From: Methylosinus sp. LW4
Lineage (GTDB): Bacteria; Pseudomonadota; Alphaproteobacteria; Rhizobiales; Beijerinckiaceae
Length of the DNA: 64,000 nt
Assembly (NCBI RefSeq): GCF_000379125.1
Contig: NZ_KB900626.1
Location: 837,747 to 901,746, forward strand
Direction of reading: 5' to 3'
A model generated the notes under the pieces. That model saw only the letters and a list, made by a program, of their open reading frames with translations, searched no databases and was not told the origin of the DNA. Positions 1,209 through 21,215 of this stretch are shown one piece after another (the stretch's first letter is position 1; every line of letters begins with the position of its first letter). A program made the position numbers and the translations under genes.

Positions 1209-1330
1209 GCCCCTCCCTCACCCTCCCCGCTGGCGCGGGAGAGGGGGCGGCCGGCGTTTCGCGAACCCTCGATGAAGGGCCGAATCTGCTCCCTCTCTCG
1301 CGAAGCGGGGGAGGGCCGGGGAGGGGGCTC
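1209..1330. repeat. Bipartite palindromic intergenic repeat, copy 1
   Basis: Two arms in opposite orientation (1209-1250 and 1289-1330) are separated by about 38 bp. Each arm holds a pyrimidine-rich tract, a short GC hairpin (CCCCGCTGGCGCGGG and CTCGCGAAGCGGG) and a purine-rich complement. The same architecture recurs between genes at about 12.8, 21.1, 42.8 and 55.6 kb. It is probably a REP/BIME-like element rather than a gene; it may also act as a transcript-end hairpin between the two Fe-S-related genes. Confidence 0.7.
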
Positions 1331-1357
1331 GCGTAGCTTGAAGAATTGGAGCGATCA

Positions 1358-1948
1358 ATGGCGCAAAAGCACCACATCACCGTCGCCGATCTTCTTCCGC
1401 CGGACGAATATGCGAAGATCCGCGTCGAGAGCCGCCGCCGCATCGCCGCGCGCAAGCGCAGTCGCCGCGTCGAGGTCGGGCCTTTCGTGACCTTTTATTT
1501 CGAGGATTTCGAGACGATCTGGCTGCAGATCCAGGAGATGATCCACATAGAGAAGGGGACGCTCGAGCAGGCGCCGAGCGAGATCGCCGCCTATGCGCCG
1601 CTGATCCCCAAGGGCCGCGAATTGGTCGCCACTTTCATGATCGAGATCGATGATCCGCTGCGCAGAAAGCGCGTGCTGGACACGCTGGGCGCGATAGAGG
1701 AGACCGCCTTCATCGAATTGGGCGGCGAGCGCATCGCCGGCGTCGCCGAGGCGGACCAGGACCGCACCAGGGAGGACGGCAAGGCCTCCGCCGTGCAATT
1801 CGTGCATTTCCCCTTCACCGACGTGCAGGTCGCGGCTTTTCGCGAGCCGGGAGCGCGCGCGCTGATCGGCTTCACCCATCAGAATTACGGGCATATCGCA
1901 GTGATGCCGGAGGCGGTGCGGGCGGAGCTGTCGGGCGATTTCGACTGA
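1358..1948 (+). CDS. DUF3501 family protein
   Basis: This 196-residue protein matches the DUF3501 family over its whole length: an N-terminal region rich in Arg/Lys, an IQEMIHIEKG segment around residues 60-70, and a C-terminal half ending in HQNYGHIAVM. The ATG at 1358 is chosen because a GGAG sits at 1348-1351; an in-frame TTG four codons upstream lies inside that Shine-Dalgarno region. No signal peptide or membrane segment is visible, so it should be cytoplasmic. The biochemical function is unknown. The conserved link with HdrD-like Fe-S proteins and rubrerythrin suggests a shared redox or peroxide-defence task. Confidence 0.85.
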   Translation: MAQKHHITVADLLPPDEYAKIRVESRRRIAARKRSRRVEVGPFVTFYFEDFETIWLQIQEMIHIEKGTLEQAPSEIAAYAPLIPKGRELVATFMIEIDDPLRRKRVLDTLGAIEETAFIELGGERIAGVAEADQDRTREDGKASAVQFVHFPFTDVQVAAFREPGARALIGFTHQNYGHIAVMPEAVRAELSGDFD

Positions 1949-19123: not shown

Positions 19124-20629
19124 TCACCCCAACCGATCCCCGAACAAAAACTCCATCGCCCGATCCAGCCGGATATGCGGCAAGGGCAAGGGCTCCTTGT
19201 CGCGGCCGAGGGAGGCGATCGGCGGGCGGAATTTCAGGAAGCGGAAATCGGCATCCTCCTCGGCCAGCGCCAGCGCGTCGCCGCGGAAGACATGGCGCGG
19301 ATCGGCCGGCAATTCGCCGGGGAAGATCGCGCCCTCCGCCACGCCGTCGAATACGTCGTCGCCGATGCGCTCGCCCTCGATCGGCGTGCCGACGATGGCG
19401 GCGAGCGATTCGCCGTCATGCTTGACGATGGCCTCGCGCGTCGCGCGCACGGCGGCGAGCGCGATCACGTCTATGGTCGCGCCGACGCCCTCGGCGCGCT
19501 CGATCGCGCGCGAGGTGAGGTGGCGCAGCACGGCCTCGAGCCGATCATGGCTCGTATGGTGGAGATGGTCGGCCTTGGTGGCCGCGAAGAGGATGCGGTC
19601 GATCTTCGGACGGAAGATGGTCGAGAGCAGACTGGAGCGGCCGGTGCGGAAGGCGGTCAGCACATCGGCGAGCGCGGTCTCGAGATCGCGCACGGCGGCG
19701 GGGCCGGAGTTCAGCGCGGCGAGCGCGTCGACCAGCACGATCTGGCGATCGAGCCGCGCGAAATGATCGCGGAAGAAGGGCCGCACCACATGGGTCTTAT
19801 AGGCCTCGTAGCGGCGCTCCATCATCGCCGCGAGGCTGCCGGAGGGGGGTGCGGAGCCTTCCTCCACGGGCAGCGGCGCGAAGGTCAGCGCCGGCGAGCC
19901 CTCGAGCTCGCCTGGCATCAGAAAGCGCCCCGGCGGCAAGGTGGAGAGGGCGAAGCGCTCCGTCTTGGCGGCGCGCAGATAATTGGTGAACAGCGCCGCG
20001 AGCTTGCGCGCCACATCCTCGGAGGCAGGCTCCTTCGGATCGACGCCCGCCGTCGCGCCGCGCCAATCGGCGGCGATGGTCGCGCGCGCCGCGGCCGAGG
20101 CGGCCTCCAGCGTCTCGCGCGACCATTGCGCATAGGATTTTTCCAAGAGCGGCAGGTCGAGCAGCCATTCGCCGGGATAATCGACGATGTCTATGTCCAG
20201 CCGCGCAGGACCGGGCCGGAAGCTCGACAGTAGACCGGCGGATTTGCGGTCATATTCCAGCGTCACGCGCAGCTCGGAGATGCGGCGCGTCGATTGCGGC
20301 CAATGGCGATCGGCGCCGGTCAGCGCGGAAAGATGCTCCTCATAGGAGAAGCGCGGCACGGCGTCGTCCGGCTGCGGATCGAGATGGGCGCTACGCAGGC
20401 GATTCTCGGCGGCGACGCGGAAGACGGGCAGCTGATTCTTGCGGCCATGCGTGGCGTCGCGCGCGGCGACGGCGCGGGTCAGATGATGCACCAGCGAGGT
20501 GATGAACACCGTCTTGCCGGAGCGCGACAGGCCGGTGACGCCGAGCCGCAAGCGCCCGCCCGCCAGAAAATCCTTGAGGCTGGCGGCGGCGACGGTGGTG
20601 TCGAAGAGAAGATCGGAAATCTGCGACAA
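19124..20629 (-). CDS. YcjX-family P-loop NTPase
   Basis: This is a DUF463/YcjX protein, a dynamin-like or GTPase-like P-loop protein often linked to envelope stress (PspF/YcjF neighbourhoods in enterobacteria). The Walker A is GVTGLSRSGKTVF near residues 30-42, and DIVDYPGEWLLDLP carries the switch-like Asp. The C-terminal part includes the ATKADHLHHTSHDRL motif (NKxD-like). TTG 20629 is chosen as start because it places the P-loop at the family's usual distance; no better start is available without running through the divergent peptide genes. The result is 501 residues, near the family's usual size. Confidence 0.85.
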   Translation of the reverse strand: MSQISDLLFDTTVAAASLKDFLAGGRLRLGVTGLSRSGKTVFITSLVHHLTRAVAARDATHGRKNQLPVFRVAAENRLRSAHLDPQPDDAVPRFSYEEHLSALTGADRHWPQSTRRISELRVTLEYDRKSAGLLSSFRPGPARLDIDIVDYPGEWLLDLPLLEKSYAQWSRETLEAASAAARATIAADWRGATAGVDPKEPASEDVARKLAALFTNYLRAAKTERFALSTLPPGRFLMPGELEGSPALTFAPLPVEEGSAPPSGSLAAMMERRYEAYKTHVVRPFFRDHFARLDRQIVLVDALAALNSGPAAVRDLETALADVLTAFRTGRSSLLSTIFRPKIDRILFAATKADHLHHTSHDRLEAVLRHLTSRAIERAEGVGATIDVIALAAVRATREAIVKHDGESLAAIVGTPIEGERIGDDVFDGVAEGAIFPGELPADPRHVFRGDALALAEEDADFRFLKFRPPIASLGRDKEPLPLPHIRLDRAMEFLFGDRLG

Positions 20630-20786
20630 GGTGGCGGCTCGGGCGTGCGGGGTCGCCTCTCGTGTAACAAGCGGCCGGCGATTTGGGTAGGGCGCGCAAT
20701 GTTCGCCAGCGCACAAACGCCGGGGAGAGCGGCGGCTAATCTCCACACATCGCAAATGACGCGAAACACCGAATGGAGAAACCCCG

Positions 20787-20903
20787 ATGAAGAAGCTTTT
20801 CCTGACCCTAGGCCTGATCGCGGGCTTCGTCTTCAGCGCCGCCGGCGCGCAGGCTTTCAATCCGCAGCCCGACCCGCCCGGCGTCCACGGCGGCGACGAG
20901 TGA
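20787..20903 (+). CDS. Exported FNPQP peptide, copy 1 (38 residues)
   Basis: This very short gene encodes a Sec signal peptide (MKKLFLTLGLIAGFVFSAAGAQA, in parts: MKKL start, hydrophobic LFLTLGLIAGFVFSAAG, cleavage site AQA) and a mature peptide of only 15 residues, FNPQPDPPGVHGGDE. The next gene is a near-identical copy. The two differ at seven positions over 117 bp, every one a codon third base; six changes are silent and one is Asp to Glu. This shows selection on the protein, so the gene is real despite its size. The function is unknown; the mature peptide is Pro/Gly-rich and acidic and would be periplasmic or secreted. Confidence 0.8.
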   Translation: MKKLFLTLGLIAGFVFSAAGAQAFNPQPDPPGVHGGDE

Positions 20904-20956
20904 GAACGAGCGGCAATACATTTTCGAACAATCACGAAATTTCGGAGCAAACCCCA

Positions 20957-21073
20957 ATGAAGAAGCTTTTTCTGACCCTCGGCCTGATCGCGGGCTTCGT
21001 CTTCAGCGCCGCTGGCGCGCAGGCCTTCAACCCGCAGCCCGAGCCGCCCGGCGTCCATGGCGGCGACGAGTGA
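20957..21073 (+). CDS. Exported FNPQP peptide, copy 2 (38 residues)
   Basis: This is a tandem duplicate of the gene 170 bp upstream. The mature sequence after the AQA cleavage site is FNPQPEPPGVHGGDE. The ribosome region (GGAGCAAACCCC before ATG 20957) also resembles that of copy 1 (GGAGAAACCCC), while the rest of the spacer has diverged. Retention of the peptide with almost only silent changes suggests that both copies are used. I recall small alphaproteobacterial proteins that share the NPQPEPPG core, but I know of no assigned function. Nothing here points to a modifying enzyme or a dedicated exporter beyond Sec. Confidence 0.8.
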   Translation: MKKLFLTLGLIAGFVFSAAGAQAFNPQPEPPGVHGGDE

Positions 21074-21083
21074 TACGGCCCGT

Positions 21084-21215
21084 CCTCCCTCTCCCCGCGA
21101 GAGCGGGGAGAGGGCCGGGGTGAGGGGCTCGGGCATTAGCCAGGGACGGAAAACGCCCCGAGCCCCTCATCCGCACCTTCCTCCCGCAAGCGTCCGCAAG
21201 CGAGGAGAAGGAAGG
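21084..21215. repeat. Bipartite palindromic intergenic repeat, copy 3
   Basis: Arm one (21084-21133, hairpin CTCCCCGCGAGAGCGGGGAG) and arm two (21155-21215, with CCCCGAGCCCCTCATCC and a CTTCCTCC...GGAGAAGGAAG hairpin) are in inverse orientation, sharing GGGGCTCGGG/CCCGAGCCCC. The architecture is the same as at 1.2 and 12.8 kb, with a diverged second arm. It separates the peptide genes from the convergent sixA-like gene. Confidence 0.65.

Follow-up and report, generated by a model that had tools for sequence, protein, structure and literature searches.

Tandem small genes encode predicted exported peptides with a FNPQP[DE]PPG motif that recurs across bacterial phyla

The window, a 64,000-nucleotide stretch of the Methylosinus sp. 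LW4 genome, contains two tandem genes whose products each open their predicted exported part with the nine-residue sequence FNPQP[DE]PPG. The same sequence recurs in exported proteins of many bacterial phyla. Taken as a whole, the observations lean, at somewhat less than an even chance, towards an exported short linear motif that would be the ligand of a putative extracytoplasmic partner, with the window genes as its smallest free form. The proposed mechanism would involve: Sec export and a cut after AQA, which would yield a 15-residue peptide beginning FNPQP[DE]PPG; display of the nine residues as a stiff, proline-rich ligand on accessible ends, tails and repeats; and binding of the motif by the partner, which some lineages would keep and others would be without. 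The window peptides would represent the smallest soluble form, encoded by two genes for dose. An exported ligand would explain why the motif sits on accessible ends, in many carriers and in tandem copies, why it varies so narrowly, and why it clusters in genomes. We infer this ligand role; it is favored by the excess of the motif over chance, four kinds of leader, up to 71 carrier groups and the link to a second phrase, LLPAV. Set against it are that no partner was found, that presence in the genus is patchy and that one of two homologues recovered with a profile is without the motif.

The motif class appears to be new in kind, with the window genes as a minimal member. In the carrier proteins scanned, the motif is described by no Pfam or NCBIfam family, and the open-access PMC library yielded no relevant paper on the motif or on the NHNET and LLPAVQ phrases discussed below. 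The recurrence of one nine-residue sequence in unrelated exported proteins from many phyla is unusual for bacteria, whose short motifs common to several families are mostly sorting or cleavage signals. Gene callers miss a signal of this kind, as its smallest carriers are about 20-40 residues long, and profile libraries miss it because the conserved stretch is shorter than a domain model needs. If the motif is a ligand, its partner can be caught directly with a synthetic 15-mer.

An earlier note on this DNA had described two 117-bp frames lying 170 bp apart. Both frames are present (Table 1); the distance of 170 bp is that from start to start, and the intergenic gap is 53 bp. The two copies do differ, as had been noted, at 7 of 117 bases, every one a third codon position. 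Six of these differences are silent (codons 5, 8, 19, 23, 25 and 34) and one exchanges Asp for Glu (codon 29); without constraint, six silent changes among seven would have a binomial p of 0.0013. The flanks of the copies are unlike, save for about 8 bp before the start (AAACCCC), and GGAG lies 8-9 nt 5' of the ATG in both. No third copy was found in the same genome.

Table 1. Features of the gene pair and its immediate surroundings, in window coordinates
Feature	Position	Strand	Basis or detail
Gene copy 1, 38 codons	20787..20903	+	Frame and paralogue comparison; near-identical copies in the genus
Copy 1, predicted Sec-type signal	20787-20855	+	Mature part FNPQPDPPGVHGGDE
Copy 1, motif FNPQPDPPG	20856..20882	+	Read from the sequence; motif recurrence
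Gene copy 2, 38 codons	20957..21073	+	Frame, paralogue and cross-genome comparison
Copy 2, predicted Sec-type signal	20957-21025	+	Mature part FNPQPEPPGVHGGDE
Copy 2, motif FNPQPEPPG	21026..21052	+	Read from the sequence; motif recurrence
GGAG, possible ribosome-binding site of copy 1	20775..20778	+	Comparable GGAG ahead of most other copies (alignment)
GGAG, possible ribosome-binding site of copy 2	20944..20947	+	Read from the sequence; alignment of copies
Perfect 12-bp hairpin, 14 bp past the copy 2 stop	21087..21114	+	Inverted repeat I10; fold z-score -3.1

Read by eye, each product has the export signal that the note had claimed: a predicted 23-residue Sec signal with AQA before F24, followed by a 15-residue mature part. 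Most likely, to judge from the sequence, the window peptides leave by Sec and are cut after AQA. The mature peptide contains three acidic residues and no Arg or Lys. It may have a structural role. Metal binding, which had also been suggested, finds no support, as the 9-mer contains no Cys, His or Met and a single acidic residue; a methanobactin-like role was rejected on the same absence of Cys, His and Met from the core. Proline-rich antimicrobial peptides resemble the window peptide in being short and rich in proline. Such peptides are basic and Arg-rich, and this identity was rejected for the lack of Arg and Lys.

Two minus-strand genes flank the pair, one of DUF463 (YcjX-like) and the other for a histidine phosphatase, and a profile scan of four neighbors gave DUF463, His_Phos_1, tRNA_bind and one gene without a match. 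A 670-residue minus-strand frame covers both small genes; its Pfam DUF463 match falls below position 20668. A promoter and terminator scan of the region called none, the hairpin 3' of copy 2 included; this hairpin may mark the transcript end, though it has no T run. A GC-rich palindromic repeat (21087-21189), possibly a dispersed element, follows the second gene and draws spurious Rfam miRNA matches. A known RNA was rejected: ten Rfam matches reach up to E 1 and none is at the gathering score, nine being miRNA families on the GC-rich repeat (21099-21189) and one Rev44 (20506-20599).

PPG stretches slow ribosomes in an EF-P-dependent manner, and one possibility would be that the short genes are translation-pausing leaders that regulate a neighbor. 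The window genes are indeed short and carry a signal sequence, and PPG is present in every exact carrier, though by construction of the search. With the arrest peptides SecM and ApdP they share a short frame, a signal sequence and a proline-glycine stretch; they differ in that no gene in the same direction lies downstream. The next downstream gene is convergent, and an arrest peptide was rejected on this ground. With no sign of a terminator-antiterminator pair, and with the motif placed in repeats or at the extreme C-terminus of many carriers, a pausing role is highly improbable.

Comparison within the genus supports these as real genes. An intact gene is present in 4 of 10 genus genomes, with one copy each in G078 and G187 and two each in G174 and the window genome. 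Across these six copies, ten codons vary silently in the alignment, and the protein changes are confined to D/E at residue 29 and an ATG/GTG start. In G128, the motif-coding end is kept and the signal peptide is gone, leaving a remnant. The remaining five genomes gave no gene match, and their phosphatase locus is without the motif within the flanks examined. Silent drift in four genomes, together with absence or a remnant in six, indicates a gene that is conserved where present and easily lost. The silent bias within and between genomes agrees with the note's view of real, conserved small genes under purifying selection, and the reality of both is well supported at the level of sequence comparison. 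It would be scarcely credible for them to be non-functional recent duplicates or chance frames with no product: the few substitutions overall and the loss from part of the genus would fit, but the silent bias and the excess of the motif in the genome collection would not.

Two database proteins were found. One of them, P0002, has the same FNPQPEPPG with a diverged signal peptide and the tail DYGD in place of VHGGDE. Of the mature part described in the note, the 9-mer FNPQP[DE]PPG is conserved widely and the full 15-mer is not. This one protein suggests that the 9-mer may outlast the rest of the protein near the genus. The note's case had turned in part on homologues with a conserved mature sequence, and both homologues and further motif matches were found. 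In Pfam and NCBIfam, the window product scores above no curated cut-off, and a match to LPAM_1 lies below its cut-off.

A scan of 84,980 species genomes (one genome per species) for exact FNPQP[DE]PPG gave at least 116 stretches. By chance, Markov models of order 1-3 would give 0.2-2, and amino-acid frequencies would give 0.3. The carriers, many of them MAGs, span many phyla: Mycolicibacterium (CBMA 226, CBMA 234 and M. moriokaense GAS496), Paenibacillus, Cellvibrio, Polyangium, Minicystis, Acidobacteria, Planctomycetes, Chloroflexi, Verrucomicrobia, Zixibacteria, Caulobacteraceae, cyanobacteria, one gemmatimonad and one archaeal record. Because the motif letters are imposed by the search, invariance among exact carriers is no evidence. 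A slightly relaxed form of the motif gives 130 frames, counting the window pair, L023 and L024; once the motif is masked, these form up to 71 BLAST groups, an upper figure since short peptides get split. The codons of the motif vary at third positions, and a mobile element acting at the DNA level was rejected on this ground.

The note had proposed a search of Hyphomicrobiales genomes. The motif is present in this order and is not specific to it: among 397 genomes, the exact F...[DE] form occurs only in the window's own genome and in G552. The looser NPQPxPPG has 15 sites in 8 of the 397 genomes, compared with about six sites for a reversed control, and loci L025, L027 and L028 resemble chance matches to this loose pattern; single loose matches therefore prove nothing. 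Separately, an NPQPLPPG form occurs in other Hyphomicrobiales proteins (L029:1396-1836 (+), L030:1396-1836 (+), L009 and L011), and those of L029, L009 and L011 have no Pfam or NCBIfam match above cut-off. Several NPQPxPP repeats, mostly 13 residues apart, are present in L024:1344-1763 (-), which has no obvious signal peptide, and in L023:1500-1736 (-). A tblastn search of plasmids with L023 gave two matches only, at E 9-10.

Carrier loci cluster in some genomes. In the genus around Mycolicibacterium CBMA 226, the exact motif occurs in 1 of 118 genomes, CBMA 226 alone, which has four unlinked motif loci (three of Sec type and one with a double-glycine leader). At least two unlinked loci are found in 5 of 50 carrier genomes, a hand-picked set, and in three of these five (CBMA 226, Minicystis and a Terriglobia MAG with L068 and L122) the carriers are unrelated to one another. 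Were second loci as frequent in carrier genomes as the near-match described next, 3 of 50 would have p = 0.001, though the carriers are a non-random set. The exact motif is absent from 248 other Pseudomonadota genomes, where the sole one-mismatch match lies inside a large oxidoreductase-like frame and was judged chance; the base rate is higher in Polyangiales, with exact matches in 7 of 115 genomes. Duplication or shared ancestry accounts for part of the clustering in the 50 carrier genomes. Among recurrent neighbors over the 116 listed loci, no partner emerged: the families are those of carriers or of general kinds, and ABC transporters lie near 4 of these loci.

Among the matches listed, the motif opens the predicted exported part in 67 of 125 exact-motif frames. 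In 37 of these it lies at or near the predicted cleavage site of a Sec signal, and in 13 it follows a lipoprotein cysteine, with about ten residues between in one case; a double-glycine leader precedes it in 5 and a short KAG-type prefix in 12. It lies near the C-terminus in 17 frames and internally in 41, some of which may be chance or false frames. These classes were assigned by a simple rule and then corrected by eye (five loci moved to Sec, two removed, and L051, L089, L153 and one L075 frame reassigned). The preceding residue is Gly, Ala or Ser in 99 of the 125.

Lipoprotein carriers occur in Polyangiales, where 25 sites with at most 2 base mismatches occur in 14 of 115 genomes, compared with 5 control sites. 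Of 16 loci taken for frame inspection, 13 gave rows (L198, L200 and L212 gave none), and in 11 of the 13 frames shown [FLI]NPQP directly follows a lipobox cysteine plus one residue. Near-copies allow little change: the form [FLI]NPQP[DEQ]PP[GA] is present in 10 of these 11. A lipobox Cys at the cleavage site is thus a feature of Polyangiales carriers; the window products contain no Cys. Several of the Polyangiales lipoproteins are tandem pairs whose Gly/Ser-rich tails differ. Other tandem carriers include four in a row at L255 and four short peptides at L152.

Folded carriers are represented by homologous beta-sandwich proteins that bear the motif at either terminus or at both, its invariance in their alignment arising by construction. 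An AlphaFold model of L048, built from 18 sequences, has a mean pLDDT of 80 and a confident beta-sandwich; the block holding the C-terminal motif averages 63, and the N-terminal motif spans blocks of 53 and 86. Foldseek found weak beta-sandwich likeness, with best TM-scores near 0.4. Searching 149 Acidobacteriota genomes with a profile of the family recovered two members, one ending GFNPQPDPPTN and the other without the motif. A model of a Caulobacteraceae carrier reached a mean pLDDT of 58. Of two PDB sequence searches, one gave two weak human matches and the other none.

This placement could also reflect a passive proline-rich cap or spacer: a stiff, exopeptidase-resistant element that guards or separates the ends of exported proteins and needs no specific partner. 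Occurrence at protein ends, behind the lipid cysteine and in between repeats is consistent with this, as are the low-confidence C-terminal copy in the L048 model and its N-terminal copy, which straddles a low-confidence and a high-confidence block. A proline cap explains placement and not one exact sequence, however: a spacer has no need of a single order of nine residues, yet the excess over chance is of that order, and patchy presence and a linked LLPAV phrase are unexpected. A purely passive role is rather unlikely.

A further proposal is that the 9-mer is the RiPP-like core of a released, possibly modified peptide signal or natural product, for which Sec, double-glycine leaders and multi-core repeats would be delivery routes. 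Three loci invite it. In L126, FNPQPEPPG comes straight after a leader ending VSGG, beside the RiPP C-methyltransferase TIGR03975 (E 2e-170), much as in RiPPs with a double-glycine or Nif11-type leader and a TIGR03975 maturase. In L100, a double-glycine precursor lies about 3 kb from a cNMP-binding, C39-peptidase ABC exporter, and in L090 a KAG-type peptide is 3' of an NHLM-related ABC exporter and a HlyD homologue, both below curated cut-offs. Carriers with several copies (L023, L024, L129 and L137) would also fit. In contrast to such precursors, the window products have a Sec signal, and their four scanned neighbors include no RiPP maturation or peptidase-exporter gene; the tested neighbors of L113 and L141 are without NCBIfam match. 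Lipoproteins and folded carriers, moreover, keep the motif attached. A RiPP-like core would account for leaders and repeats and leave these carriers unexplained, and we consider it rather unlikely.

The preferred reading, an exported ligand, invites comparison with other short elements. PEP-CTERM/exosortase and LPXTG/sortase systems are protein sorting tags and, like FNPQP[DE]PPG, involve a short conserved element in many unrelated exported proteins, patchy in its distribution among genomes. The carriers differ in having no hydrophobic helix and basic tail at the C-terminus (HGGDE closes the window products) and in bearing the motif more often N-terminally. One carrier family (L136) has PEP-CTERM in addition to the motif. 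As a separate observation, L223:842-1534 (-), on an IMG/VR contig of 4768 bp, encodes two FNPQPEPP motifs and, by eye, a PEP-CTERM-like end; the protein resembles planctomycete L053, and other frames of the contig look phage-like. WW and SH3 domains bind proline-rich short linear motifs, and the likeness here is a proline-rich 9-mer on flexible ends; the difference is that FNPQP[DE]PPG is bacterial and exported and has no known binding domain.

Other phrases accompany the motif. Of 130 carrier frames, 15 contain LLPAV or LPAVQ (8 of 71 groups), compared with 2 of 583 other long frames at the same loci, these being the longest open frames and not proven genes. The odds ratio is 38, with p = 4e-10 when frames are counted and 5e-7 when groups are. 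LLPAV[QKEH] sits at differing places in the carriers, among them L102:4253-4756 (+), L113, L115, L123 and L150. The L102 protein (Acidobacteriota) unites three of four phrases: FNPQPDPPG, LLPAVQ and NHNETLVR. Four of 50 carrier genomes, including that of L102, have NHNETL[VI], compared with 0 of 119 Acidobacteriota genomes (p = 0.007; leaving out L102, 0.024), a contrast confounded by the differing phylogeny of the sets. It is conceivable, though doubtful, that FNPQP[DE]PPG, LLPAV[QK], KxKTxVKAG and NHNETLV form an exported-phrase vocabulary shared by distant phyla. Exported proteins would carry such phrases on their leaders, ends and repeats, where common extracytoplasmic receptors or processing enzymes would read them. 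In Minicystis rosea, the repeats of L229 (~1321-1930 (+)) alternate KAG-like (RIKSGVRAG) and [NQ]HNETLVK phrases, and the same genome also has four tandem MKTKTSVKAG-FNPQPDPPG mini-genes.
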